From: Mya arenaria
Lineage: Eukaryota; Mollusca; Bivalvia; Myida; Myidae
Reading direction: 5' to 3'
NCBI RefSeq assembly: GCF_026914265.1
Contig: NC_069135.1
Coordinates: 9,708,887 to 9,772,886 of the forward strand
Length of the DNA: 64,000 bases
Shown: in pieces, positions 3,196-58,939 of the stretch
Layout: each line of letters opens with the position of its first letter
Numbering within the stretch: position 1 is the first letter of the stretch
The notes under the pieces: generated by a model
The model's input: the letters and a program-made list of their open reading frames with translations, nothing else
Told to the model about the DNA's origin: nothing
Databases searched by the model: none
Made by a program: the position numbers and the translations under genes

Positions 3196-3352
3196 CTGCA
3201 CATTTACCAATATTGAAATAAATGGTGTACAGATTGCTGTCTTTAATATGCCTACTAACAATTTTAAGCAACAAAAGTTCTTAAATGTACAGTATTCAAT
3301 AATAACAAAATGTATTACGTTGTTTAAAGACTCATTAGAACCCGTTCAATAC

Positions 3353-3775
3353 TTATATGAAAAACTACAGAAACAAGCTCAGTAGCCAAAGGTTTAAACA
3401 TAAACCCCGTTTAATGACACAGGGTCAAAGACATAAAACACAAAAACAAACGATCACAAACAAGAAGCATCCAACAACAGCACAAAACTCCACCAACAAC
3501 ACAGTACATATTATACACTATATAAAACAACTAGGTATGTTTATCAAGGATTGGTAGATTCCGCCTTGGAACGGTCAGTAAAATGTAAATTTAATGGGGG
3601 TTTAAACCCATTTGTGTGCACAACCTCACTTTCATCCAAACAATCACGAATAAAGTAAAAACGTAAATGGTAAATCTTAAGTAGGCAGTAAAAAAAAAAA
3701 ATAATAATAAAAGAAATAATAATAAACTAATAGGTCAACTCCAGGTACTTCAATGATTAGTGATCCCGTCTCTAT
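3353..3775 (+). repeat. Dispersed repeat family, copy 1
   Basis: About 420 bp that match 8,268-8,690 in direct orientation. Both copies begin TATGAAAAACTACAGAAACA, carry CCCCGTTTAATG and GGAACGGTCAGTA, and end near a GATTAG..GATCCCG..TATCTGCAGAC block. Short open frames in both copies are by-products of the repeat. The element class is not recognised. Confidence 0.7.
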
Positions 3776-3990
3776 CTGCAGACGAAGGAAAACACAAGAA
3801 AAGGCAAAACAATCGGAGGAAAACACACAAAAAACAGGTTTAAACGAATCTAAACAAAACAGTGCTGTTGAACTTCTATTGGTCCTTTACTGCTCTAACG
3901 TAATATACATGGCCAATTTGACGAATGTGCATTATCTTCAGTGTTGCAGTAACATGGTATTCACTATATTCTAACTATTTCTCTTTATAG

Positions 3991-15714: not shown

Positions 15715-17970
15715 GTGGTAGTGGTAGTGGAAGTGGTAGTGGTAGTGGAAGTGGTAGTACGTAGTGGTAGTGGTAGTTGTAGTGGTAGTGGTAGGTGTAG
15801 TGGTAGTGGGAGTGGTAGTGGAAGTGGAGGTGGTAGTGGTAGAAGAAGTGGAAGTGGAACTGGTAGTGGTAGTGGAAGTGGTAGGAGAAGAAGAAGTGGT
15901 AGTGGAAGTGGAATTGGTAGTGGTAGTGTAAGTGGTAGTGTAAGTGGAAGTGGTAGTGGAAGTGGTAGTACGTAGTGGTAGTGGTAGTTGTAGTGGTAGT
16001 GGTAGGTGTAGTGGTAGTGGGAGTGGTAGTGGAAGTGGAGGTGGTAGTGGTAGAAGAAGTGGAAGTGGAACTGGTAGTGGTAGTGGAAGTGGTAGGAGAA
16101 GAAGAAGTGGTAGTGGAAGTGGAATTGGTAGTGGTAGTGTAAGTGGTAGTGTAAGTGGAAGTGGTAGTGGAAGTGGTAGTGGAAGTGGTAATGGAAGTGG
16201 TAGTAGTAGTGGAAGTGGTAGTGGAAGTGGTAGTGAAAGTGGTAGTAGTAGTAGTTGAAGTGATAGTGGAAGTTGAAGTGGTAGTGGTAGTGGAAGTGGA
16301 AGGGGTAGTGGTAGTAGTAGTGGAAGTGGAAGTGGTAATGGAAGTGGTAGTAGTAGTGGAAGTGGTTATGGAAGTGGTAGTGGAAGTTGTAGTGGAAGTG
16401 GAAGTGGTAATGGAAGTGATAGCAGTAGTGGAAGTGGTAGTGGAAGTGGTAGTGGTAGTGGAAGTAGTAATGGAAGTAGTAGTGGAAGTGGTAGAGGAAG
16501 TGGCAGTGGTAGTAGTAGTGGTTGTGGAAGTGGAAGTAGAAGTAGTAATGGAAGTGGTTGTAGTAGTGGAAGAGGTAGTGGTAGTGGAAGTGGAAGTGGT
16601 AGTGGTAGTGGAAGAGGTAGTGGAAGTGGAAGTGGAAGTGGTAGTAATGGAAGTGGTAGTGGTAGTGGAAGTGGAATCGTAATGGAAGTGGTAGTAGTAG
16701 TGGAAGTGGTAGTGAATGTGGAAGTAGAATGGTAATGGAAGTGGTAGTAGTGGTGGAAGTGGTAGTGGAAGTGGTAGGGGAAGTGGTAGTGGAGGTAGTA
16801 GTGGAAGTGGTAGTGGAGGTGGTAGTGGAAGTGGTAATAAAAGTGTTAGTGGAAGTGGTAGTGGAAGTGGTAATGGAAGTGGTAGTGGAAGTGGTAGTGG
16901 AAGTGGAAGTGGTAATGGAGTCACGTGTAGAACTGCTAGAAACAGTTACATTTGAGGAGACGTCAAACGCAGACCTTCTAGTAGGGATAACTTTGTCAAG
17001 AAACGCGTTGAAATAAATAAAAGTGAAAGTGGAAGTAGTAGTAGTTGAAGTGATAGTGGAAGTGGAAGTGGTAGTGGTAGTGGAAGTGGAAGGGGTAGTG
17101 GTAGTAGTAGTGGAAGTGGTAATGAAATTTGAAGTAGTAGTGGAAGTGGTAGTGGAAGTGGTAATGGAAGTGGTAGTGGAAGTTGTAGTAGAAGTGGAAG
17201 TGGTAATGGAAGTGATAGCAGTAGTGTAAGTGGTAGTGGAAGTGGTAGTTGTAGTGGAAGTAGTAGTGGAAGTAGTAGTGGTAGTGGTAGAGGAAGAGGC
17301 AGTGGTAGTGGTAGTGGAAGTGGTATTGGAAGTGGAAGTAGAAGTAGTAATGGAAGTGGTTGTAGTAGTGGAAGAGGTAGTGGTAGTGGAAGTGGAAGTG
17401 GTAGTGGTAGTGGAAGAGGTAGTGGTAGTGGAAGTGGAAGTGGTAGTAATGGAAGTGGTAGTGGTAGTGGAGGTGGAATCGTAATGGAAGTGGTAGTAGT
17501 AGTGGAAGTGGTAGTGAATGTGGAAGTAGAATGGTAATGGAAGTGGTAGTAGTGGTGGAAGTGGTAGTGGTAGTGGAAGTGGTAGTGGTAGTGGAAGTGG
17601 TAGTGGAAGTGTTAGTGGAAGCGGTTGTGGAAGTGGTAGTGGTAGTGGTTGTGGTAGTGGTAGTGGTAGTGGAAGTGGTAGTGGAAGTGGTAGTGGTATT
17701 GGAAGTGGAAGTAGTAGTGGAAGTGGTACCGCAGTGGTATTGGAAGTGGTAGTGGTAGTGGAAGTGATAGTGGTAGTGGTAGTGGTAGTGGTAGTGCAAG
17801 TGGTAGTGGTAGAGGTAGTGGAAATGGTAGTGGTAGTGCAAGTGGTAGTGGTAGAGGTAGTGGAAATGGTAGTGGTAGTGGATGTGGTAGTGGTAGTTAA
17901 AGTGGTAATGAACGTGGAAGTGGAAGTGAAAGTGGTAGTGGTAGTGATAGTGGTAGTGATAGTGCGTAGT
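15715..17970 (+). repeat. 2.3-kb GTGGTA/GTGGAA simple-sequence array
   Basis: Almost pure purine-rich GTGGTAGTGGAAGTGG-type repeat. It carries nested larger duplications: a 211-bp tandem copy (landmark TACGTAG at 15,758 and 15,969), and an ~800-bp duplication that repeats the stretch from about 16,250-16,740 at 17,040-17,540. The long frames on both strands (Thr/Ser/Leu/Pro or His/Tyr on minus, Val/Glu or Gly/Ser on plus) exist only because the repeat lacks stops. I do not call them proteins. Confidence 0.95.
16919..17023 (+). repeat. 105-bp unit trapped inside the array
   Basis: Nearly exact copy of 15,321-15,428, with a few substitutions, flanked on both sides by the simple repeat. Its presence shows that the array grew by duplications that also copied flanking non-repeat DNA. 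Confidence 0.9.
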
Positions 17971-18092
17971 AGTATTTCGGGTGGCGTCATCATGATCATG
18001 ATAATGATTATCAGTTGAAGAAGTCGAATTATTATCAACAGCAATAACTGCAGCAGTACTACAAACTTTACTACTAAGACTTGTTGACTTAA

Positions 18093-18638: not shown

Positions 18639-18647
18639 GATTTTAGT
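18639..18647. repeat. MULE target-site duplication, left
   Basis: GATTTTAGT. The identical 9-mer lies at 21,691-21,699, immediately outside the other end of the element. Nine bases is the usual size for Mutator-like elements. Confidence 0.88.
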
Positions 18648-18869
18648 GGGAAACGGACAAAAGCCCTCCCGTTCAAAAATGACAGGGCGGACAAAAGGCC
18701 TCCCGTGAAAATTACAGGGCGGACAAAAGCCCTCCCGTCCAAAAAAAAAGGCGGACAAAAGGCCTCCCGTGAAAATTACAGGGCGGACAAAAGCCCTCCC
18801 GTAAAAAATGACAGGGCGGACAAAAGCCCTCCCGTGAAAATAACAGGGCGGACAAAAGCCCTCCCCTAA
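18648..18869. repeat. MULE left terminal repeat, seven tandem units
   Basis: Units of about 32 bp read ACAGGGCGGACAAAAGCCCT then CCCGTGAAAATT in this orientation. Each contains the short inverted repeat GGGC..GCCC around GGACAAAA. Some units read AAGGCC instead of AAGCCC. The outermost unit starts GGGAAACGGACAAAAG. Confidence 0.92.
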
Positions 18870-19276
18870 CATATTTGAATTCACGTAAATATGAACGGAT
18901 TATTCCCATATGAGGATTAAGATTGACAGAGTAAAATGACATACAGAAATTTAAATTCACTAAATTCAAGACGTTTTTAACGTGCCTTGTAACGAATCAA
19001 TTATTCATAAAAGTAGCTATTATATTTTTAGTTGCAAAAAAATAAATAAAAAATATAGGCATAGTTAATTAGTTTTGTAAAATCATTATCAAAAGGCAAT
19101 ATATTTAACATTATCACATTTTAATTAAATGCTGGATTACATTAAGCTTAATTGTTTGTTATTGACACTATGCAATTTAATCTCTTTAATTTGATGATAA
19201 AATTTATTAATTGCTTATAAAATATTTGTTAATTAGTTTTTTGCGCTGAATACAAACTGTTGTTTTATAAAACTAT

Positions 19277-21191
19277 ATGTATAAAACTAGTGCATACCTT
19301 GTATCACTATTCAATTATAAAGTCATTAAGAACAACAAAGGTGGCATTAAACTGTGTTATGCAGGCCATGCTTACACTAAGAAAAAACCCAACAAGACGA
19401 CCATCCGTTGGGAGTGTACCCAGCGTAAAGCTCTTGAGTGAAAAGGAGCTGTAACCACAGACATAAATGTAAGTATAGTAATAAACTATGCTGTTAGAGT
19501 GCTAAATATGTTATAAATATATAATTTTTGTTTTAATTATTATACGTTATTGTCTGAAGATATATACAAGCATTGAAATCGCTAACAGAAATAAACGTAT
19601 AAAAGTTAAACGTAATTTATAATCTGCATTTCCCAAAACTTTTCTATACACGGGATCCACACACGGGATCGATCTATTTTTTTTTTGTAATATATGTTAT
19701 ATGTATATATACATGTTGCATTTAAACATAAATGTTCAAATACTGATGATTTATAATTTGTGGTATCTTGTTACTATGTATGAAGTATGCTTGCATTAAA
19801 TTACACGTAACTTGTTTTTCATTAATCTGTTGTTGTTTTTTTATTTTTTCAGACTGTAGAGATAAAGTCGGTGTACCCTCACACGCATGACGGAGACTCC
19901 TTCAAGCTGGAAGCAATGAAGGTCCGCGCTGATATCATGTCAGCCGCAGACGCAAACAGAGGAAAACCAGGCCAGATCTTAGCTGACAAACTGGCAACAG
20001 TGCCAAAAGAGGTAATATTTATGTCCACTAAAGAACATAAACATGTTTATGTAAAAAATAGAGTGTTACGTGTATTATCACATAATAAAAACTGATTATA
20101 TATATACCAGTTATTAATCGTTAATTCAAATGAAAAGCGTACTTTATATTTTCCTATTTATAAGTAAAATATGAAAGGAAAGATCCACAAAGATTCTTAT
20201 AGATACATGATTAATATTATTTTCACAGGTGAGAGCAGCAGCTGGTAGAACAGACACTCTTAAAAGATCAGTTAGAAGAGCCAAGCGAGGAACAGCACCC
20301 TCAGAACCCAACAGTATCGCAGTCATACCCAACCCTCTTCCACTACAATACACTCAACTCCAGGAAGATCAATTCCTAATCTACGATAATGAGTCCACCA
20401 CAGAGAGGATCCTGATGTTCGTTAGCGAAATGGGTATTCAGCAGGTACCGCAGATACATGGTTCATGGATGGTACACACTCGACAGGTTTGTTTGTTTTA
20501 TCATTTCAAATATCTATTTTTCATATTTTTTGTTTAAATTATTTTTGAATCCATTTTATTTGTTTAGGTAAAATAAACAACACTAATAGCAGACTGTTTT
20601 ATTATAATAATCTTTATTTTTGTACGAATGTTATTTTGATATATTCTTATAGGTTCGTGAATTTTTTTATTAAACTGGTGCTATTTAACAAAGATTTAAA
20701 TGTTTATATTACGAGTATATTACAACTTTTTGTATATTTGCTGTTTACACTAATTAACCAATGTTGATCTCTCTATACATATATATACATACAACTACAT
20801 TAAAATATATTTATAATTAAACAGGTCAGTAGTTGGAGCAGGGGGTACACTACGATGAAGAACGCCACCCCGATTCCACCCACCGACATGGAATGTACGA
20901 GAAGCGACCCTTCAAGACCGTCAAAGGACCAACAACATGTGCGAGTATTGGAACAATTCCTTTAAACATCTGGTGGGCCACAACAATCCATCTTTATGGA
21001 CGATACTAGGGTGTCTTCAGAAAGATGCAGCAATGTCCGAGGCTGCCATTCTTAGGTACGAAGAAGGTCAACCGAAGTCAAAAAGAGTAAGGAAATCAGC
21101 AGCCAATCACCAGAAGAGGGTTAAAAACTTGTGCCAGCAACATGAAAGGGGAGAGAAGACAATGGCGCAATTTCTCATTGCCATGGGATAA
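19277..21191 (+). pseudogene. FLYWCH zinc-finger / MULE transposase gene, broken
   Basis: Four exon-like blocks: 19,277-19,468, 19,853-20,011, 20,229-20,486 and 20,825-21,191, all with AG/GT borders. Block 1 has a FLYWCH finger (GGIKLCYAGHAYTKKK, then TIRWEC), but the expected second Cys codon is TGA at 19,439. Block 2 supplies the His-x-His (YPHTHDGD) and the helical GKPGQILADKLATVPKE. Block 3 leads to DQFLIYDNE..ERILMF, the lead-in to the MULE domain. The catalytic WFMDGT is present only in a shifted frame near 20,458. Block 4 has an in-frame TGA upstream of PPRFHPPTWNV and then the conserved C-terminal TNNMCEYWNNSFKHLVGHNN. The DDE core between WFMDGT and PPRFHPP is missing. In intact relatives the protein binds element ends and moves the element. 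Confidence 0.8.
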
Positions 21192-21335
21192 TGCATACGT
21201 CTGGCAAGATAGACAGATAAATAAATGAACGGATATCTATGTGCTACGTACTATATGTGCTACTTTACTGTAGTGTATATAACTTGCATTGCTATACGTT
21301 ATGTAACTAAATTTGAACCTTGAAATTTGTTATAA

Positions 21336-21341
21336 AATAAA
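21336..21341 (+). terminator. Poly(A) signal of the MULE gene
   Basis: AATAAA about 145 bp after the TAA stop of the transposase-like gene, inside the element. Confidence 0.5.
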
Positions 21342-21551
21342 GAACGGAAAAAAGTGTTGGCTTATTCATATGTTGAATGTTCCCGAAATGTTTACAGATT
21401 TTAGCATTTTATGTCCGGAATGTTCCGATACGGCATAAGACCAAATTGAAAATATCAACAACAAATATATCTGCCTACTTTACTGTTTAAAAATATTGGA
21501 AAGAAAAACAAAGAAGCAGGTATTTAACATACATAATTATATATTTATGTT

Positions 21552-21690
21552 ACGGGAGGGCTTTTGTCCGCCCTGTAATTTTCACGGGAGGGCTTTTGTC
21601 CGCCTTGTAATTTTCACGGGAGGGCTTTTGTCCGCTTTGTCATTTTTGGACGGGAGGGCTTTTGTCCAGGAGGGCTTTTGTCCTGCTTTC
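21552..21690. repeat. MULE right terminal repeat, five tandem units
   Basis: Inverse-orientation counterpart of the left end. Three full units of GGGAGGGCTTTTGTCCGCC plus spacer are followed by two shortened units ending TTTTGTCCTGCTTTC at the target duplication. Confidence 0.92.
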
Positions 21691-21699
21691 GATTTTAGT
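21691..21699. repeat. MULE target-site duplication, right
   Basis: GATTTTAGT, identical to 18,639-18,647. Confidence 0.88.
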
Positions 21700-21919: not shown

Positions 21920-21963
21920 TTCGATCAAGCCGAAACGTTATTTGTGTGTAATATAAGTTGATA

Positions 21964-24900
21964 ATGCAAAAGAAGAATAATAAACTTGAGAGTTTTTTGT
22001 TTAAATCCTTACCTGAGCACAAGTACGAGCGGATCCGTGGATATGAGGCCTGCATTGTTATTTCGGAGAAAGAGAACAAGGCATTTAAGTATGTGGTTCT
22101 TGGGGACCAGTGGATCTACCTGACAGAGAACCCACCCCGGGTCATCCAGGAGGCTGTCCCGCTCAATGATGTCATCTCAGTTGAGCTTGTGAGTTTTGTC
22201 CCAGAAGGCTTTTGACCCATTTGACTTGTATACTACTAGAATTCAATCTATTGTACATTTTCAGCCAAAGAAATTGCAGTTCGGCTATAATTAAGTATAA
22301 GGCTTCATCATTAAGAATTTCAACTTTTGAAAATGTTAAAATGTCTGCCTACTGCCACTCATTCAATGCACGCTAACTTTTCTGATTTTGCGTTGACATT
22401 TAATAGGCAAGGTATCTAGTGGCCAATACTAGAATAAATGAAGCATTGATAACAAATAACAATACACATATAAAACACATACAAAGTACATAACATTCAC
22501 AGGTACAAGTTCACAATAGAACCCACCGATTGTGGATCAAACTTGTGCAATAAGGCTCGCCCCGCTATCACTCATCTCTGTACTGCTACTGTTACTGTAC
22601 TGCAAAGTTAGTAATGGTGAAATAGATTTAGGTCATGACTCTATAAAAACATGCAATACATTGTTCTTCAGAATTATGCTGCGATAATGAAATATAGAGG
22701 TACAGCCATGTACATGAAATATTATTCAAAAGGATGTTAACAAACAAGGCATTGCCCATTTGCAACATTTAACAAATACAAATATGAACAGATACAAAAC
22801 TAACCTCAAAATCCACGTCAAGCACATGACAAGTTAAAAATATACTTTGGCTTCTAAAGGGACATAGTCCAAATAATTGTACGTTGACAGATTTTTTTTA
22901 CGATTTTTGATATGGCAAATCCTTCACGTACAAATTGGTTTGTACCAAAAGTGGGTAGTTGTTCTGATCGGGATTCCGGGTTAAAGCATATTATGTGATT
23001 TACGTCCATAAAATATCGTAAAAACAGGAAATATTACTAGATAATGTTATTTTATATTAGTTCCGTACACAAAAAATAAATATTCAACAAATAATTATGA
23101 GTTTGATGGGGTTTTCTTCATTTCATTCTGTCAAAACAAGGTTGCTGTTCACAGTTTCACAACAATTGGAGCACTTCGGTCATGGTCGAGTTGTTATGAT
23201 TGTATTTACGAGGTCTATCACGAAGCTTGTCGGAGGTGGCCGAGTTATTACAATTGGGTCGAGTTGTTCCGCTTGGCATAATTGTTGTCTATGTCAGTCA
23301 AGTTTCGTTTTATTGGAAAGGTAGATCATGTGTTATATGCTTGTTTTGTGCAAAATAGCTTTATACTTACATAGTAAAATATGAATATAAACCTTTATTA
23401 TCCATTTCAAACATAAAATACTTCACCTAATGCAATTTCAATATTTTTCAAACCCACCCAGTTTTTGCACAAACCCTTTTAGAAGTTAGGTTAGGGATTG
23501 AAAGAATCCCGTAAAACACATCGAAGAATGATGTCCGCTTCCTCCAAAACATTTCAACAACACTTCTTTTAATGTTGCACATCAGGTCAACGACTTCCCT
23601 GACTTCCTCATGGGTGATGACAAGAAGAATTGCCAGCATATTGCGATTACCTACTGGACCAGTGAACCAGTCAAACGCAGGTCGTTCCGTAAGAAAAAGT
23701 CCCCACGTGGATCCCAGTCTGATCTCCATGGTGATCGTTCTAATGCCTCCACCCCACTTAGTATGGCCTCATCATATGACCTCTGGGCTGATGAACACTC
23801 CTTCAATACAAGGTGAGGAACATTATATGTTATGGGTTAAGAAGGGGACCTGATTTGTGAAAAATGGAAGCTCAAACCCGAAAACGGTTTCCTGCACCCC
23901 GTATATCCAATATTGAGTCACCTACTAACCCTGTAATGTATATTTCACTTCAACAACCTGTTAACATTGATAAAGGCACCAATACTATCTTTGAAATGTT
24001 TGATTAATTCATTGGAATCAGAAAATAGACACCATTTTGATACGATATAAAGATTATAGTGACCACATATGGAAAATATGGGGTCATTTCATGACCAGTC
24101 CTGGACCAATGGCATTGCATCATTCATGTTGGAGACGTGTATATATATATATGTATATATTCACAGATATTTTTCTTTGTTGGGTTTACCATTCTTAGGT
24201 TCCACCGTATTTGTTTGTTGAAAACAGGATGTGAACAAAATTGGAGCGAGCAGGAGTAATAAAAATCATCTTTTTTTTCTTCTGTTTTGTTCAAAAACAG
24301 GAATGGGTGATTGACTGATTCAAAGGTAAAACCATAACTTATTGTCAGAATGATACTCCAGAACAATAACTTCATAACCCTCGTACATGTTAGTTAAAGG
24401 ATATACTCCACAAGGTTTTTATTTAAAATAACTCAGGCTTGAATTTAGAAAAAAATTGAACTAGCATATTTTTGCATGTGCTTAAAATGCCAGCTCGTAA
24501 AATTTGAAGTTGTCTCGAAATTTTTCTGTTCACACCTCTGTTTTTGTTAGGAATATGTAATGTGATAAAAAAACAACAACAATTTTTTTTGTGTCATAAC
24601 AATTCACCTTTTAAATTAGATTCTTAAACATAGAAAACATATTGAGGAAGTTTGATACACAGTCTACACAAAATATCTTGAAGTCATTTCCATCATTGTC
24701 TATATTGAAGGTTAATTTCATGGGGATCTTTTTCTCCCATTTAGTTTTATTATGGAAAGATTATTTAATTTAGGCTTTTATGTCAGATTAGTTTAATCAT
24801 CGCCATTTCTGATAATCTAGAAATAGTTTCAACTACATTAACGGACTGATTTTCTAAAAATAGTTTCTACATGTACATTACATGTAACTGACCACATGTT

Positions 24901-27900
24901 TGCCCTCACTGCGGGAAAATGACCATCTGATAAGCTCTGCATTTTGATAGGAATTATTGCTAAAGTTATTCGTAAAAATAAAATCCTTTTCCTTAAACAA
25001 TTAAAACGTGTATGTTCATAAAACTTGCATAACGTATGATATCTAATCAAAGCACTGAAAATCTTTAGAAGCGATTGAAAGGGGCATGCATTGTCAGCGT
25101 TATACACTTACGCATGTGCGTAACATTTATTTGAAAAATGAAAGGTCGAGGGCTATGCTAAAAATTGATATCAGAATAAAAGGAAGAGTAGCCAAAGTAA
25201 ACGTTGCTTCCCTATAATAGATAGCTTTCTGAGCAGAAATCAATCACTTGGTAACTACAAAATCGGCGGCCTCGAATCTATTAATCCTTCCAAATACACC
25301 TTAGAGCTCAACATGTTCATTCCATTTTCCACTGGGTAGACCCCCCGAACCCCCAACCGACTACAGTGATATTCCCCATCCCACACCCTCCCCCTTTAGT
25401 GCGTTACATTCGGTAAAGTCTGATTCATGATAGTGTACTGCTTCTCAACGTTGGTAATACTGCCGCCTAAAATTTGAACCCAAAAAACAATGTCTACATC
25501 GTACATGCCATATCCCCCAGTGGGGTGCGAGGGGGGAATCTCCCAGAATTCAGACCCATCCCCTGGCTATGCCGGGGGATCCATATCCCCTGGAATTTAA
25601 AAAGAAAAAAATATATTTTAAAACTTGCTTAAGGTTGACAGTGGAAAGCATCCATAATATTCAGTGTGTGTATACCTCGTGATAAATTGCGTCATAAATG
25701 CTACGTCGGAAGGCAATATTTTGATTTGAAAAACGACTTTAAACAAAGATATCTTCACTTATATAATTTCTTTACCATTTTAAATGAAACATAGCACAGT
25801 CTACACAGGTTACGGAGCCCTGCCTTCGATCTTTAACCAGATTTTGATTGAGAGTTTAGTTTCTTTAACCACTTCGACAAACCTTTTCGCAATATGGCTG
25901 TCTGACGGAGCACTGTCAAAACATTATTTTGGAAACAGCGGTTTGTTGAAGTGTTTGATGAAACTAATCAACTTATCAAACTACGGTAAGCAGCATAGAC
26001 TGCCCATTGTTTCATTTAAAATGGTGTTGTAAAAGAAAAGTTATCTTTGATTTAAGACTTCAATTTTGTTTAAATGTTGCCTTCCGACGTAGCAAATATG
26101 ATGTAATTTATTACGTGGTATACACACACTGATATTATGAGTGTGAAATTCCATGAAGGACCATGATGACTAAGTCCAAAAACTATTGTAATTAGAGTGT
26201 ATATCTGTATTTATTCTTATATTATAAATGTTGATATTGCGCAAAATTTTGCCACGTAAAAATCCCCTGGTGTAATATCAAAATCCCCTGGAATTCAGAC
26301 CAAAATCCCCTGGGAAGCCTCTCAGAAATATGGCATGTATGCTACATTATGTGTGCTTAGGGTAACAGGCTTAGGTAAATGGCATCATTTTATGTGTGTT
26401 TACAAGAAATAGAGAGTAGGCAAATTGAAAGTTGGTATCATTAAGAGTTTTCACTCACAAAATTTTAACCTTAAAACCCAACTTGCAATTTCCAATTCTC
26501 ACTTGCATTTTGCGAATGTGCAGGCGCTTAATTTGAGCCCTGATAACTGTTTCGGTGTTCCAGAAATCATCAGAGACATTTTATTATAATTATGTTTTTC
26601 GAATTCTTGGATGCAAATGTTTTGCATGAAATGCTTTTTTGGGGGGATTTTTTACAATTTTTGGTGAAAAATAGGTGTGCTTCCTTTCAATAAATTAATT
26701 ATATTTTTAGCAATTTTCTGAAAAAACCTAAAGTTGTGGTAAATTTCCCATATGGACCATCAGTGTTTGGTGTGGCCTTAGGGGTGATTCTGAACAATCT
26801 ACCACCTTTAATAGAAACAAGAATGCTCTTGTAAATATATTTAATTTCATTGCATGCATTTTGTATCAATACCTGTATAATTCAACAACTGCTATAAACT
26901 ACACGCCTGTATATTTAAAAATGATAGGAAATCCAATCAATCATGATATGACTAGCTCGCAGTAAAAAATAATAATGTATTATTATGAGGTTGATTTTAA
27001 ATAAGGAAATAGTTGTATACACATAAGTAGCAATCCGTGATAGATAAATCTGAGCTTATTAGTTTCTCATACACCACAGAGGAATGTGAAATGATAATTT
27101 AAGAGATCAATTTTCAACTATTGCATTTCATTGAAATATATATTATCAGGATTTTTTCTTAAAATTTATGGTGTACTTAAGAGAACAATTGTACAAGAGA
27201 AATTAAAAGTACAAATATTGATTTCTGGCTTTGCCAATAAAATGGTTGATGAAATATGACCTATTTCATCCAATAAATTGCACATGTATCAGTCAAGAGC
27301 ATTTAATATTTAAATGGCAAGTATTTTAATGGCATGTTATTTATATTGTTGTACTTCATAGATGTTTATAAATGTAATTAAAGGTTGTTAAAGCTGACAA
27401 AGTTACAAAATACTGGTATTACCGGTATGAATTTAGGATAGTTTAATAAGAATTTAAATATTAGTAATACCAATAAATTTCCTCTATTTCTTCTGAACCT
27501 TACCATATATTTTTTTAAATTAAAAGATTGCATCTTTGTTTGTTTTGTTTGCTGTTATATCTTGACACTCGATAGATTACCCTCACTAAGATTTCCAAAA
27601 TTTACAAAAGGTCACCAAAACATAATATAATACCAAATCAGCTAGAAAAACATCTAAAACATTCACTGTAGAAACTTTCAAAATCTTTAAAAATACTAGG
27701 TACCTGAGTTGGCATGGCAAACAAATGTTTCAAAACCATAAAACCTGGTGTAAATATTCACCATTTAGAAATATTAAATTTTGTACATGTTAAGGATGAT
27801 TTCCCCAGTCCTGTTGTAAATTTTATGAAGGACACCTTACCTCTGCCTTCAACCAAATTAATCGTGTGGAACCAAAGAAGTGAAGTGAAGTTATTAAATT

Positions 27901-50125: not shown

Positions 50126-53100
50126 ATGGGACTATTCACGTACATACTGCTGGGAGCGGTCATGCTGGGCTGCGAGGGTTATTCCTTCTTGGACTTTGCG
50201 CACCTGTACCACCAGTACCAACAGCAGATCCCATCGCCGTCAGCCCTCAGCCAGGTTGCCTGGGCACGCCATCACCCGCAGCCCACAACGAATCGACGGC
50301 CCATCAGTCTCCTGAACTCCATCAGGCAGTCTATGTCGCATCTGTCTAACAGGGCTCAAACAGTCAGGGGTAAGTAGTCTGACTTAATGTCCTTCGTTTA
50401 GACGCAACTGATCCAGTGTGCATAAATATAAAGTTTGAAAAAAAACTTATTTAAATTAGCTCTTTCACTAGCGAGTTTAGAGGGGGGATGCACCCTGCGC
50501 GCGCCCCTCTAAAATCTTCTGAGTTTACTTTTTATGTCAATATTGGATGTAAAAATGTATTAATACACGCTCAAAATGCACAATTTACTACTACAAATGG
50601 TCAAAATTATCTTCAGGGAGTAACTCCAAATCCCCATACAAACCGTTTATGCCATATACTTTCGGAATTGAGGGCGGGGAGCGTGTCAAAAGGTCACGCC
50701 CCTAAGTCACGCCCCCTCTAACGTCATTTCCTGGATCCGCCCCTGATACTAGTACTTTATATACTTTATAAAAAACAGTATGTTTAACCGAGAAATGAAA
50801 CAAAGACATTACCAATGTATAGGCTGATTGAACTCCTTTTACCGATGTGTTTACAATTAAAAACTACTCAATCAAAAGTATGATTGTATACTTCTCCAGT
50901 TATTTTGGTATATTTTAAATGGCTTTTACGCACATACTTTCAACTTACCGTATAACCGCAGACATTTTAATGGACGACTTCGAAGTGCGTTTGTTTGTTC
51001 ACGCCCATTTAATTGTATTTTCATTTGCTAAAAATAATTCATAAGAAAAGTCAAAAAGAAATCAACCTAGGGCCTTTGTCAACTTTCAACGTATAACGTT
51101 CACTTCATTGACATAAACAATTGTTTAAATAGACATTATAATATATGTTTTTCATAAAAGTATGTGTTTACCAACATCAGCAATTTAACGGACCAGGGGC
51201 CGTTATAGGCACCAGGGGGATGTGTTCTAGGCACCAGATTGCCGTTTTATGCACCGGGGGTGCGTTCTTGGCACCAGAGGCCATTTGAAGCACCAGTGGC
51301 CGTTTGAGGCAAAAGGGGATGCGTTCTAGGCACCAGGGGCCGTTTTATGCACCGGGGGTGCGTTCTAGGCACCAGGGGCCGTTTGAGGCACCAGGAGGTT
51401 CGTTCTAGGTACCAGGGGCCGTTTATTGCACCGGGGGTGCGTTCTATGCACCAGGTTGCCGTTTTATGCACCGAGGGTGCGTTACAGGCGTCAGGGGCGG
51501 TTTTATGCACCTGGGGGGGGGGGCGTTACAGGCACCAGTGCCCGTTTAATGCACCTGGGGGCGTTAAAGACACCAGGGGCCGTTTTATGCACCAGGGTGC
51601 GTACTAGGCACCAGGGGCCATTTAATGCACTGGGGGTGCGTTCTAGGCACCAGGGACCTTTTGAATGTATCGGGGGTGCGTTTTAGGCACAGGGGGCGTT
51701 TTAGGCACCAGGGGCCCTTTTAAGGCACCAGGGGCCCTTTTAAGGCACCAGGGGGCGATTCGTGCACCAGGGGGCCGTTTCAGTAAAGGATCATTTTAAT
51801 GAAGTCAATCTTCTTAAATCTGTATGTTTTGTTTATCTTCACCTGTGTGTGTTCACTTTAAACACTGGGAAAGGTTTAATTCCCACACATGTGTAGCACT
51901 AACAGTATTTCAATATGCAACTAAAATCGACTAAAAACTTTATTGCAACGGGTCCAAGTTCTTCAAAACTGTACTGTACGATATCAGTATGACGTCGTTT
52001 CCTTTCATTGCATTTAAATGTAATACTTATGCGTAGATCTATCCTCTAATGTAATGTGGTCATCCATGTGATGCCTTCAACCATCAAATATAATTCTTAT
52101 TTTCGGCATTCTATTACTTAAAATGTAAATATCTAGTATTGCATACATTTTGTAAGAAGTGTTTAACCAATCTGCTGTATGACATTACAGAGACAACGAC
52201 GCAGCTTCCGGGGTATACGAACGTGTGTGACGTCATATGCCCCCGTTGGTGCGCCAGCCGGTCCAGTCCTGACGTCAACGTCACTGATTGTCATTTCGTG
52301 TGCGGCAACGTCTGTAATAAACAGGTAATCAGTTACAGTATGAAGACATTTAATTAACACATTGTGTATCAGATCGATGTCATATTTGTCAACACTTTTC
52401 GGTATGAAATGTACGGCTGTTTAGATGATAATTTTATTTCCATCCACAGACTATAGCCCGGAACCCATACGTAGGAAACTCGCGCTTCGAGGTTGTTCCT
52501 AGTGAGTTCCAGTTCACGCGGTATGACGTTAACGATGACAAGCGCGTGTCGCTCGAGGAGTTCGCACGTGAGGAGGGTGTGTCACGACAGGACGCGCAGG
52601 TCATCTTCGACTTTGCCGATTTCAATGGTAGGATGTCTGGCGTATTTTGGAAATATTAGCAGTAGTCTTTGCCGAAGTCTGTACCTGTATATGTTTCCTA
52701 TTACTTATTTTAGAAAACGATGTACAGTTTCAGCCACTAGACTTGCAGATAAACCATTAAGAAAAAACTTAATCATTATGAATGTGTTTAAAGGTTCGCC
52801 TTTTACCACGTATCTGATACACACACCTTGCGTCAGAGTTTGCATTGCCAATGTGTCAGCCAGTAAGGTTGCATTCTAAGTCAGTTAGATGACCTGCGGA
52901 GTAATATCTTAATGATTAAGGAAGGTTTCTTTCGCTAAGCTCAAGCTGCCCATTCTTAATCATTAAGATTTCACTTCAAGTCATCTATTACATGTTACTT
53001 GTTTTCAAGAACACAAAGTAGAAAGGGGCACACTATAGTTATAGCCATTTTAAGTATCTTTAATAACGTTATTATTTAGACGAACGTGTTAAACATACCT

Positions 53101-56100
53101 GTTTGCAAGAGCTATGGTGAAAACTGCTCAAGGGTATTCTAATTTATACTAGTTGTGCCAGCAACGTGGTTTAACCTAACGAAAACATCCAATGTTCCAG
53201 TCATTTCTGTACACTCGCCTACTTGTTTGTAATATAAGTGAGAAGTAAGAGTAAAACACTTGATGAGGTGTGGTGTTGTTAGTGTAGTTTGGTGATGGTA
53301 ACCAGTACACTTAATGAAGTGGGTTTTATAAGCAAACCGTGCACTGGATGAAGTGTGGTTTGGCGAAAGTAACCTATACGCTGGAATAAGTATAGTAGTC
53401 TTGATAAGGTAATACACAAACTTGATGAAGTGTGTTTTTGGTTGAGGAAAGACATACACTTGATGAAGTGTGTTTTGGTTGAGGAAAGACATACACTTGA
53501 TGAAGTGTGTTTTGGTTGAGGAAAGACATACACTTGATGACGTTTTGTTTTATTGAGGTTGTTCTGACACTGGACGAAGTGGGGAAAGTGGGGATTTGTT
53601 ATGGTAGTCCAGACACTGGACGAAGTGGGGAAAGTGGGGTTTTGTTATTGTAGTCCTGACACTGGACGAAGTGGGGATTTGTTATGGTAGTCCTGACACT
53701 GGACGAAGTGGGGATTTGTTATGGTAGTCCTGACACTGGACGAAGTGGGGATTTGTTATGGTAGTCCTGACACTGGACAAAGTGGGGAAAGTGGGGATTT
53801 GTTATGGTAGTCCTGACACTGGACGAAGTGGGGATTTGTTATGGTAGTCCTGACACTGGACGAAATGGGGATTTGTTATGGTAGTCCTGACACTGGACAA
53901 AGTGGGGAAAGTGGGGATTTGTTATGGTAGGTCTGACACTTGATGAAGTGGGGTTTTGTTATGGTAGTCCTGACACTTGACGAAGTGCGGTTTTGTTATG
54001 GTAGTCCTGACACTGGACGAAATGGGGATTTGTTATGGTAGTCCTGACACTGGACAAAGTGGGGAAAGTGGGGTTTTGTAATGGTAGTCCTGACACTTGA
54101 TGAAGTGCGGTTTTGTTATGGTAGTCCTGACACTTGACGAAGTGCGGTTTTGTTATGGTAGGTCTGACACTTGATGAAGTGCGGTTTTGTTATGGTAGGT
54201 CTGACACTTGACGAAGTGCGGTTTTGTTATGGTAGTCCTGACACTTGACAAAGTGGGGTTTTGTTATGGTAGTCCTGACACTTGATGAAGTGGGGTTTTG
54301 TTATGGTAGTCCTGACACTTGACGAAGTGCGGTTTTGTTATGGTAGGTCTGACACTTGATGAAGTGCGGTTTTGTTATGGTAGTCCTGACACTTGACGAA
54401 GTGCGGTTTTGTTATGGTAGGTCTGACACTGGACAAAGTGGGGTTTTGTTATGGTAGTCCTGACACTTGATGAAGTGCGGTTTTGTTATGGTAGTCCTGA
54501 CACTTGACGAAGTGCGGTTTTGTTATGGTAGGTCTGACACTTGATGAAGTGCGGTTTTGTTATGGTAGTCCTGACACTTGACGAAGTGCGGTTTTGTTAT
54601 GGTAGGTCTGACACTGGACAAAGTGGGGTTTTGTTATGGTAGTCCTGACACTTGATGAAGTGCGGTTTTGTTATGGTAGTCCTGACACTTGACGAAGTGC
54701 GGTTTTGTTATGGTAGGTCTGACACTTGATGAAGTGCGATTTTGTTATGGTAGTCCTGACACTGGACGAAATGGGGATTTGTTATGGTAGTCCTGACACT
54801 GGACAAAGTGGGGAAAGTGGGGTTTTGTTATGGTAGTCCTGACACTTGATGAAGTGCGGTTTTGTTATGGTAGTCCTGACACTTGACGAAGTGCGGTTTT
54901 GTTATGGTAGGTCTGACACTTGATGAAGTGCGGTTTTGTTATGGTAGTCCTGACACTTGACGAAGTGCGGTTTTGTTATGGTAGGTCTGACACTGGACAA
55001 AGTGGGGTTTTGTTATGGTAGTCCTGACACTTGACGAAGTGCGGTTTTGTTATGGTAGGTCTGACACTTGATGAAGTGCGGTTTTGTTATGGTAGGTCTG
55101 ACACTGGACAAAGTGCGGTTTTGTTATGGTAGTCCTGACACTGGACGAAATGGGGATTTGTTATGGTAGTCCTGACACTGGACAAAGTGGGGAAAGTGGG
55201 GTTTTGTTATGGTAGTCCAGACACTTGATGAAGTGCGGTTTTGTTATGGTAGTCCTGACACTTGATGAAGTGGGGTTTTGTTATGGTAGTCCTGACACTT
55301 GACGAAGTGCGGTTTTGTTATGGTAGGTCTGACACTTGATGAAGTGGGGTTTTGTTATGGTAGTCCTGACACTTGACGAAGTGCGGTTTTGTTATGGTAG
55401 TCCTGACACTTGACGAAGTGCGGTTTTGTTATGGTAGTCCTGACACTGGACAAAGTGGGGAAAGTGGGGATTTGTTATGGTAGGTCTGACACTTGATGAA
55501 GTGGGGTTTTGTTATGGTAGTCCTGACACTTGACGAAGTGCGGTTTTGTTATGGTAGTCCTGACACTGGACGAAATGGGGATTTGTTATGGTAGTCCTGA
55601 CACTGGACAAAGTGGGGAAAGTGGGGTTTTGTAATGGTAGTCCTGACACTTGATGAAGTGCGGTTTTGTTATGGTAGTCCTGACACTTGACGAAGTGCGG
55701 TTTTGTTATGGTAGGTCTGACACTTGATGAAGTGCGGTTTTGTTATGGTAGGTCTGACACTTGACGAAGTGCGGTTTTGTTATGGTAGTCCTGACACTTG
55801 ACAAAGTGGGGTTTTGTTATGGTAGTCCTGACACTTGATGAAGTGGGGTTTTGTTATGGTAGTCCTGACACTTGACGAAGTGCGGTTTTGTTATGGTAGG
55901 TCTGACACTTGATGAAGTGCGGTTTTGTTATGGTAGTCCTGACACTTGACGAAGTGCGGTTTTGTTATGGTAGGTCTGACACTGGACAAAGTGGGGTTTT
56001 GTTATGGTAGTCCTGACACTTGATGAAGTGGGGTTTTGTTATGGTAGTCCTGACACTTGACGAAGTGCGGTTTTGTTATGGTAGGTCTGACACTTGATGA

Positions 56101-58939
56101 AGTGCGGTTTTGTTATGGTAGTCCTGACACTTGACGAAGTGCGGTTTTGTTATGGTAGGTCTGACACTGGACAAAGTGGGGTTTTGTTATGGTAGTCCTG
56201 ACACTTGATGAAGTGCGGTTTTGTTATGGTAGTCCTGACACTTGACGAAGTGCGGTTTTGTTATGGTAGGTCTGACACTTGATGAAGTGCGGTTTTGTTA
56301 TGGTAGTCCTGACACTTGACGAAGTGTGGTTTTGTTATGGTAGGTCTGACACTGGACAAAGTGCGGTTTTGTTATGGTAGTCCTGACACTGGACGAAATG
56401 GGGATTTGTTATGGTAGTCCTGACACTGGACAAAGTGGGGAAAGTGGGGTTTTGTTATGGTAGTCCAGACACTGGACAAAGTGCGGTTTTGTTATGGTAG
56501 TCCTGACACTTGACGAAGTGTGGTTTTGTTATGGTAGTCCTGACACTTGACGAAGTGCGGTTTTGTTATGGTAGTCCTGACACTTGACGAAGTGCGGTTT
56601 TGTTATGGTAGGTCTGACACTGGACAAAGTGCGGTTTTGTTATGGTAGTCCTGACACTTGCCGAAGTGCGGTTTTGTTATGGTAGGTCTGACACTTGATG
56701 AAGTGCGGTTTTGTTATGGTAGTCCTGACACTTGACAAAGTGGGGTTTTGTTATGGTAGTCCTGACACTTGATGAAGTGGGGTTTTGTTATGGTAGTCCT
56801 GACACTTGACGAAGTGCGGTTTTGTTATGGTAGGTCTGACACTTGATGAAGTGCGGTTTTGTTATGGTAGTCCTGACACTTGACGAAGTGCGGTTTTGTT
56901 ATGGTAGGTCTGACACTGGACAAAGTGGGGTTTTGTTATGGTAGTCCTGACACTTGATGAAGTGCGGTTTTGTTATGGTAGTCCTGACACTTGACGAAGT
57001 GCGGTTTTGTTATGGTAGGTCTGACACTTGATGAAGTGCGGTTTTGTTATGGTAGTCCTGACACTTGACGAAGTGCGGTTTTGTTATGGTAGGTCTGACA
57101 CTGGACAAAGTGGGGTTTTGTTATGGTAGTCCTGACACTTGATGAAGTGCGGTTTTGTTATGGTAGGTCTGACACTGGACAAAGTGGGGTTTTGTTATGG
57201 TAGGTCTGACACTTGATGAAGTGCGGTTTTGTTATGGTAGGTCTGACACTTGATGAAGTGCGGTTTTGTTATGGTAGTCCTGACACTTGATGAAGTGCGG
57301 TTTTGTTATGGTAGTCCTGACACTTGACGAAGTGTGGTTTTGTTATGGTAGGTCTGACACTTGATGAAGTGCGGTTTTGTTATGGTAGTCCTGAAACTTG
57401 ACGAAGTGCGGTTTTGTTATGGTAGGTCTGACACTGGACAAAGTGGGGTTTTGTTATGGTAGTCCTGACACTTGATGAAGTGCGGTTTTGTTATGGTAGT
57501 CCTGACACTTGACGAAGTGCGGTTTTGTTATGGTAGGTCTGACACTTGATGAAGTGCGGTTTTGTTATGGTAGTCCTGACACTTGACGAAGTGCGGTTTT
57601 GTTATGGTAGGTCTGACGCTGGACAAAGTGGGGTTTTGTTATGGTAGTCCTGACACTTGACGAAGTGCGGTTTTGTTATGGTAGGTCTGACACTTGATGA
57701 AGTGCGGTTTTGTTATGGTAGTCCTGACACTTGACGAAGTGCGGTTTTGTTATGGTAGGTCTGACACTGGACAAAGTGGGGTTTTGTTATGGTAGTCCTG
57801 ACACTTGACGAAGTGCGGTTTTGTTATGGTAGTCCTGACACTTGACGAAGTGCGGTTTTGTTATGGTAGGTCTGACACTGGACAAAGTGGGGTTTTGTTA
57901 TGGTAGTCCTGACACTTGACGAAGTGCGGTTTTGTTATGGTAGGTCTGACACTTGATGAAGTGTGGTTTTGTTATGGTAGTCCTGACACTTGATGAAGTG
58001 CGGTTTTGTAATGGTAGTCCTGACACTTGACGAAGTGCGGTTTTGTTATGGTAGGTCTGACACTGGACAAAGTGCGGTTTTGTTATGGTAGTCCTGACAC
58101 TTGACGAAGTGCGGTTTTGTTATGGTAGGTCTGACACTTGATGAAGTGCGGTTTTGTTATGGTAGTCCTGACACTTGATGAAGTGCGGTTTTGTTATGGT
58201 AGTCCTGACACTTGACGAAGTGGGGTTTTGTTATGGTAGGTCTGACACTTGATGAAGTGCGGTTTTGTTATGGTAGTCCTGACACTTGATGAAGTGTGGC
58301 TTTGATAAGGTATTCCTTACATTTATACGCCCTTTCAGGGGACGGGTACTTGGACACAGATGAGATGAAAGGAGGACCGTTTGTATTCACAGGTACGAAC
58401 TTCAATGATTTTTTTATTCTTTGCAATATTTATATTCTTATTGCGATGCTTTCATATTTTTAAAAGCGATTTACAAATATAAAAACATTCAATGGTTTTA
58501 GAAAAGGTAATTCTGAAAGTGATGTTTGTTTCCACGTGATCGTTAAGCACAGGAACTGTTGTGATGGACACCACACCAGAGCCGAGGCTGAACTAAATTC
58601 TCTGACAGACAAGTATTGCCTATGACTGACTTTGGATACACTAAATTCTCTCAGTTAAAGAAGATTTTCATACAAGGATAACAACATTCATTATCAACTA
58701 ATGAACTAAATATTACTCCACCTTCCTTTTATACTTTCAGTGCTTTAATTTTTGATTTTTTTGAACAAATAGCAACATAATAACAAGCACGGTTTACAAA
58801 TGTCAGAAATTAACAATTGTTTGTATATGCCAAACTTCCAATTTATTCATATATTTAACTTGTACATGTATAACACGTTTCAGTGCAAATGGCAGCGGAG
58901 TTCAGCAACATGGCCAAGGCTTTTCCCGCCACAGTCTGA
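50126..58939 (+). CDS. Secreted Cys-motif and EF-hand protein, 5 exons, 221 residues
   Basis: Exons 50126-50369, 52191-52324, 52450-52627, 58339-58392 and 58884-58939 join in phase (666 bases). Residues 1-18 are a leader (MGLFTYILLGAVMLGCEG). Residues 19-81 are Gln/Ser/Pro-rich. Exon 2 gives C94-x3-C98-x3-C102-x12-C115-x3-C119-x3-C123, a symmetric six-cysteine motif with an N-glycosylation site NVT at 111-113. Exon 3 holds EF-loop 1, DVNDDKRVSLEE (152-163), with all acidic calcium ligands. EF-loop 2, DFNGDGYLDTDE (183-194), is also complete but is split by intron 3 at Gly186. The tail is short. Calcium binding outside the cell is inferred. Secreted EF-hand proteins occur in bivalve shell matrix and haemolymph, but nothing here proves that role. 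I do not know a named family with this cysteine motif plus an EF pair. Confidence 0.9.
50400..51180 (+). other. Intron 1, first part, with transposon fragment
   Basis: The stretch 50,470-50,750 starts GAGGGGGGATGCACCCTGCG and ends CACGCCCCCTCTAACGTCAT + TTCCTGGATCCGCCCCTG, an end motif shared by many invertebrate repeats. The 77-codon frame inside is incidental. Confidence 0.5.
51193..51785 (+). repeat. GC-rich ~35-bp minisatellite, intron 1
   Basis: About 16 imperfect units of GGCACCAGGGGCCGTTTTAT + GCACCGGGGGTGCGTTCTA. Each full unit contains the palindrome GCACCGGGGGTGC. Several units are shortened towards the right. Frames on both strands are artefacts. Confidence 0.92.
51786..52190 (+). 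other. Intron 1, last part
   Basis: AT-rich unique sequence leading to the exon 2 acceptor. Nothing recognised. Confidence 0.4.
52628..53280 (+). other. Intron 3 before the array
   Basis: Contains a short inverted repeat (ATCTTAATGATTAAGGA at 52,907 and CTTAATCATTAAGAT at 52,954). Otherwise unremarkable. Confidence 0.45.
53400..58312 (+). repeat. ~4.9-kb 37-bp array with 185-bp higher-order repeat, intron 3
   Basis: On the order of 125-130 tandem units of GTAGTCCTGACACTTGACGA + AGTGCGGTTTTGTTATG (37 bp). Older units at the left read TTTTGGTTGAGGAAAGACAT. Later ones are of several types: GTAGGTC or GTAGTCC, TTGATGAAG, TTGACGAAG or GGACAAAG, and GTGCGG or GTGGGG, with some ~10 bp longer (extra GGGAAAGTGG). 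The GGACAAAGTGGGG type returns every 185 bp (54,421 to 54,606; 55,974 to 56,159; 56,908 to 57,093), i.e. every five units. The array ends 26 bp before exon 4. Confidence 0.95.
58393..58883 (+). other. Intron 4 of the EF-hand gene
   Basis: AT-rich, nothing recognised. Confidence 0.45.

Follow-up and report, generated by a model that had tools for sequence, protein, structure and literature searches.

A decayed foldback-ended FLYWCH Mutator-like element and its family in the genome of Mya arenaria

The window analyzed here, a stretch of 64,000 nucleotides from the Mya arenaria genome, contains a decayed, well-bounded foldback-ended FLYWCH-MULE. The best explanation for it as a whole, to which we give a probability of roughly 0.85, is that it belongs to a family of Mutator-like elements (MULEs) with foldback ends and a FLYWCH zinc finger, as a non-autonomous copy that has undergone internal deletion, together with the mechanism proposed in the Discussion. 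The ends, the target duplications, the family and the variation of the arrays, which form the observed part of this explanation, were seen directly.

Results

Boundaries and terminal arrays of the element

The element is flanked by an exact 9-bp target duplication, and the two flanking copies of GATTTTAGT (Table 1) are the only ones on the + strand of the 64 kb, while the reverse complement occurs once, at 51920. Its outermost bases are G and C, as the initial annotation had stated for these termini and for the duplication, and these ends are true boundaries, since other genomic copies have the same termini and different flanks. The description given there, of a Mutator-like element with defined bounds and inverted ends made of tandem units, is supported by the 9-bp duplications and by the termini common to other copies.

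Both ends are arrays of related units in opposite orientations, and the seven units reported on the left and five on the right were confirmed: the core GGACAAAAGCCCTCC is exact in 5 left units, has one mismatch in the other 2, and is exact in 5 of 5 right units. Base composition alone predicts approximately 3e-5 exact cores for 64 kb, versus the 5 + 5 present. The description of the unit as 32 bp long, with GGGC..GCCC arms on each unit, was found to hold in part. A spacing of 32 bp is the commonest in either array, but spacings of 34, 33, and 16 bp also occur (34, 32, 32, 32, 33, and 32 bp on the left; 16, 34, 32, and 32 bp on the right). The arms around GGACAAAA, judged by eye, are both complete in 4 of 7 left units and 1 of 5 right units, but not in the remaining ones.

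The insertion seems to be close upstream of a host gene, because a match to the N-terminal part of DUF4551 (PF15087, 1.9e-29, profile positions 2-80 of 610), located at 21958-22212, starts approximately 270 bp past the element. Elsewhere in the window, an array of the hexamer GTGGTA (~374 copies, 15715-17974) lies a short way upstream of the element, and a long 37-bp tandem array of ~126 copies is present at 53586-58321.

Table 1. Features of the element in the window (positions are those of the 64,000-nucleotide stretch)
Feature	Position	Strand	Basis or remark
Element, 3043 bp	18648-21690		exact bounds at both ends
Target site duplication, left copy, GATTTTAGT	18639-18647	+	read from sequence
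7-bp 5' end motif GGGAAAC (A end)	18648-18654	+	
Left array, 7 units, order a b a b a b x	18655-18869	+	unit scan, TRF
FLYWCH zinc-finger exon remnant, in-frame stop at end	19319-19441	+	Pfam PF04500, 1.7e-7
Second transposase exon (TVEIKSVYPHTHDGD...VPKE)	19853-20011	+	comparison with L036; splice sites by eye; no Pfam match
Third transposase exon, first-aspartate motif WFMDGTHST out of frame	20229-20486	+	L032 and alignment of relatives; splice sites inferred; no Pfam match
Last transposase exon, catalytic-glutamate motif (NMCEYWNNSF), two frames	20825-21191	+	L036 and alignment of relatives; start by eye
Right array, 5 units, outside inward T a b b y	21555-21683	-	unit scan
7-bp 3' end motif GAAAGCA (read inward), deviant (B end)	21684-21690	-	GAGTGTA usual elsewhere in family
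Target site duplication, right copy, GATTTTAGT	21691-21699	+	read from sequence

Family copies and their target sites

A DNA search of the 1.216-Gb, 18-contig assembly yielded at least 92 matches, 32 candidates were scored, and 27 regions were retrieved, in which L031-L051 represent the family and L052-L057 represent diverged relatives with 73-77% identity to the family over parts of the arrays. L035 and L036 form a single copy, and flanks are common to L031/L032, to L043/L045, and to L047/L048; the family thus counted comprises 18 independent insertions, i.e. the window copy and 17 others in the same genome. The members of the three flank-sharing pairs lie ~1-1.2 Mb apart (L032/L031 at 20.39/21.46 Mb of C2, L043/L045 at 42.06/43.09 Mb of C12, and L048/L047 at 16.46/17.67 Mb of C12) and could be segmental duplications or unpurged haplotypes.

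Both termini were found in 10 insertions, and 8 of these, including the window copy, carry exact 9-bp duplications, as had been anticipated for other copies; a length of 9 bp is within the 8-11 bp range of target duplications by which Mutator-like elements are recognized. The duplication of L034 matches in 8 of 9 bases, and that of L035+L036 also matches in 8 of 9, only after a one-base shift. The initial annotation also held that sites lacking the insert should have a single target copy, which was seen at uninterrupted related sites for two other copies. Beside L041, the target exists in a related tandem copy that is uninterrupted and contains CTTAATTGA just once (87 of 96 positions identical across the join). 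For L040, a related uninterrupted place exists in its own flank (124/169 identical), and two more are located in the window at 26104-26147 (40/44) and 25659-25688 (28/30).

Two insertions, of 192 bp (L047/L048) and 258 bp (L046), consist of arrays and termini alone and have exact duplications. Therefore, the termini and arrays appear to be enough for mobilization, which a transposase supplied elsewhere could carry out.

Eight insertions have one end only. Exact duplications on both sides were found for L041 and L044, whereas in the other six no second target copy with one mismatch or fewer was detected in the stretches searched, aside from a one-mismatch match ~500 bp away in L051 that was taken as chance. 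Because they lack a convincing second target copy, these six are possibly simple truncations, and in L049 seven of the nine target bases (AAATCAT), directly after the broken end, may be a remnant of that copy.

Organization and variation of the arrays

The number of units per array in two-ended copies varies from 3 to 9 (the left array of L031 being counted one short, because a unit with an inserted base fell below the threshold) and has no set ratio between the two ends. This agrees with the variable unit number that had been suggested, and inverted ends of tandem repeats varying in number are a feature of foldback-type elements. From the outside inward, an array is composed of a 7-bp motif, an optional 16-bp unit (T), one or more 34-bp units (a), 32-bp units (b), and a side-specific inner junction, which is x on the 5' side and y on the 3' side. 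With T allowed 0 to 2 times, the T-a-b order fits 27 of 33 arrays, in a tally that counts duplicates of one insertion separately. The exceptions are the left array of the window, in which the a-b pair is repeated, L043 and L045, which are without a, and one array each in L039, L040, and L050, which contain one unclassified unit apiece.

The A motif, GGGAAAC, is exact in 16 of the 33 arrays and has a one- or two-base variant in 2 more, and the B motif, GAGTGTA, was found in 11 of 15 B arrays, with one-base variants in 3 and the GAAAGCA of the window in 1. In 11 of the 12 two-ended rows (10 insertions), an A terminus and a B terminus can both be identified, the twelfth being the window copy with its A motif and deviant 3' motif; such a difference between the two 7-bp termini is a feature of Tm1 (see Discussion). 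In 19 of the 22 arrays with a legible junction, the junction is x if the terminus is A and y if it has the 3' motif, and the three off-pattern pairings are in both arrays of L039 and the single array of L044. In L039, each array bears the inner junction of the opposite end and the exact duplication is kept, which indicates that the interior was flipped relative to the termini. We interpret the flip as a result of recombination between the two arrays of L039, the alternative being conversion of both termini.

Variation was also found between L031 and L032, which have the same target duplication and are 95.8% and 96.4% identical over two long pieces that include the flanks. The differences are one 16-bp terminal unit at one end and one 32-bp unit at the other, and the extra 32-bp unit is evidently a copy of its neighbor, which bears the same variant. 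Whether L031 and L032 are duplicates or represent two haplotypes that the assembly placed separately, the change of units came after insertion. Among the diverged relatives, L052 and L054 keep the 32-bp period (~23 copies in L054), one end of L052 reads GAGTGTA-GGACAAAA and one of L057 GAGTGAA, and a target duplication was looked for in L052 and not found.

The unit had been described as hairpin-forming, and arm pairing was counted in 159 units, with L048 dropped as a duplicate and both members of L031/L032 and of L043/L045 kept. That the units act as hairpins, in extruded DNA or in RNA, would be consistent with the pairing of all four arm bases that is possible in 60 of the 97 units lying inside the first two, and with the GGGC/GCCC stem in the fold of one unit. 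However, the four-pair stem is possible in none of the 31 outermost and none of the 31 second units, the changes in the 5' arm are one-sided, a G-T pair being retained in five cells, and the 159 units include no case in which both arms changed and pairing was preserved. In addition, the folding energies of four sequences are similar to those of shuffled ones (z -0.44 to -0.87). Hairpin formation was thus not borne out in general, and we reject hairpin function as a general feature and regard it as highly improbable. The core is better conserved than the tails and is kept in outermost units that have no hairpin arm; what is conserved is the linear core, GGACAAAAGCCCTCCCG, which resembles a protein site.

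Transposase remnants and relatives

The interior of the window element consists of transposase remnants (Table 1). The FLYWCH/MULE gene of the initial annotation could be recognized in part: the FLYWCH finger is present in the window, but as a remnant, and the MULE domain was seen solely in sister copies. No MULE domain was detected by Pfam in five stretches of the window, four of which are the transposase exons, including the FLYWCH exon. The joined pieces of L036 score 29.8 bits with MULE PF10551, versus a cut-off of 27.6; the joined piece of L032 (13.9 bits) is under this cut-off, as are all single stretches scanned (best 18.3 bits). A MULE/DDE transposase was thus found at the family level only, in the joined L036 pieces and in the motifs of relatives, and an N-terminal FLYWCH finger combined with MULE, which is a Phantom feature, was likewise found at that level by domain content. 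The second aspartate and the C..H motif are encoded in L036 by a stretch (within 3211-3924) that is without counterpart in the window element. The window copy is non-autonomous, because its FLYWCH exon is broken by a stop, its first-aspartate exon is out of frame amid other frame shifts, and the exon or exons with the second aspartate are absent. A family copy with an intact transposase was not found among the candidates of the DNA search (32 scored, at least 92 matches).

The extra interior DNA of L031/L032 and of L035+L036 was considered as the missing catalytic region and rejected. The former reads as a nested inverted-repeat insert, because near-identical peptides are encoded on opposite strands; as to the latter, L036 has a nested integrase-type ORF. 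Neither is an intact family copy. The nested ORF of L036 (4819-6024, 402 aa) lies inside the 13.8-kb copy and matches an integrase core and H2C2 just under the Pfam cut-offs. Weak Pfam scores for ELYS, lipase, W2, and CA109-like were taken as chance.

When the L036 pieces were used as a protein query, 241 proteins were matched, 120 of which were listed. The best relative, P0001, is 480 aa long, contains FLYWCH and MULE, and has 62% identity over 73% of the query, and other relatives of ~480 aa carry both domains as well. The hosts of the relatives named among the matches listed include Ruditapes, Mya arenaria, Dreissena, Mercenaria, Mytilus, gastropods, crustaceans, and a tick. In 12 relatives picked by hand from the 120 listed and aligned, D187, D253, C275, H278, and E393 (P0001 numbering) are invariant in 12 of 12. 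By their position and by analogy with D214, D283, and E419 given for Muta1 (PMC5225508), a protein outside this alignment, D187, D253, and E393 would be the catalytic triad. Three stretches of viral contigs matched a pattern, and none of them encoded a relative of P0001.

Discussion

We propose that a transposase provided by another copy would bind each end at several copies of the 16-bp core GGACAAAAGCCCTCCC, probably via its FLYWCH finger, would cut at the 7-bp termini, which differ between the two ends, and would paste the element into a new site with a 9-bp staggered cut. After insertion, array units would be gained or lost by slippage or unequal exchange, and recombination between the two arrays, which can occur because they are inverted copies of each other, would flip the interior. 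Incomplete repair after excision might sometimes leave only one end, with an intact target copy on each side. It is plausible that the unit arrays are a multi-site binding platform for the transposase, as had been suggested, with a precedent in Galileo, the repeats of which bind the THAP domain of its transposase (PMC3688188); the same paper, from 2013, describes such a role for the tandem repeats of Foldback and Phantom elements as untested at that time. More tentatively, and at rather long odds, the ends might be an ordered docking platform, in which a cutting site composed of the 7-bp terminus, the 16-bp half-unit, and the 34-bp unit is followed by interchangeable enhancer units of 32 bp (~three helical turns), the strength of an end would be tuned by how many of them it has, and array inversion would re-pair interiors and termini.

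Alternatively, the arrays could be a by-product of slippage and have no role past the outermost unit. The variation from 3 to 9 units in two-ended copies without a fixed end-to-end ratio, and the gain or loss of single units in place between L031 and L032, are what slippage would produce. On the other hand, the T-a-b order is kept in most arrays, conservation of the core exceeds that of the tails, the 32-bp period also occurs in the diverged relatives L052 and L054, and every end of the two-ended copies has at least 3 units, and we consider that a mere by-product is unlikely. It is less likely still that the one-ended L041 and L044 are products of transposition by a single array instead of failed repair. 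Each has only one array between exact duplications, as such products would, but L041 keeps ~150 bp of interior past its array, which fits copying that stopped, and the other six one-ended insertions have no convincing second target copy. Binding of the transposase to repeated cores, with later changes in the arrays and occasional incomplete repair, remains our preferred reading.

The layout of the clam family resembles that of systems described in other animals. Tm1 of root-knot nematodes, classified by its authors as Mutator/Foldback of the Phantom subclass (PMC3169594), is described there as having 9-bp duplications, termini with differing 7-bp motifs followed by GGA, inverted arrays with a variable number of tandem units and a distinct inner motif, copies that are mostly short and non-autonomous, and an intron-bearing FLYWCH + MULE transposase, all like the clam family. 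However, its unit sequence and host are different, and its units are ~14 bp long with 1-9 per array, compared with 16, 34, and 32 bp in the clam family. Muta1 of Aedes aegypti (3198 bp), a type 2 Foldback element according to its authors (PMC5225508), is similar in its 8-9 bp duplications, its FLYWCH + DDE transposase, and its inverted ends with subterminal tandem repeats, which vary in number among its derivatives. In contrast to the clam family as known, intact copies of Muta1 are reported to exist and to transpose in yeast, and each of its ends has nine 12-bp repeats, its 10-bp terminus being palindromic. Subterminal tandem repeats are reported for 10 of the 12 long-ended mosquito families. 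Drosophila FB and Galileo also have long inverted ends with internal tandem repeats, and FB4 has duplications of 9-10 bp, but the ends of FB4 are ~700 bp and the FB/Galileo units differ from those of the clam (PMC8277862, PMC4079207), and the Galileo transposase is P-type (PMC3688188) rather than MULE.

Since Tm1 and Muta1 share this layout, the array-ended architecture is already known. For molluscs, a table in PMC6446971 gives two MULE groups, for which ends of 48 and 296 bp, or no ends, are listed without their structure, and no mollusc host is named for its Phantom group; PMC10294476 provides 39 curated bivalve MULE consensus sequences, the ends of which are outside the present comparison. 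The initial annotation knew of no described molluscan MULE with this layout, and none was found among the open-licence literature matches listed, a scope that excludes RepBase and closed papers; the layout as such was not new.

The present finding extends the foldback-ended FLYWCH-MULE layout to a clam genome. The family is most useful as a naturally occurring set of end variants, and its array-only copies, together with the public full-length relatives of the transposase, would allow the binding of the repeats to be measured.
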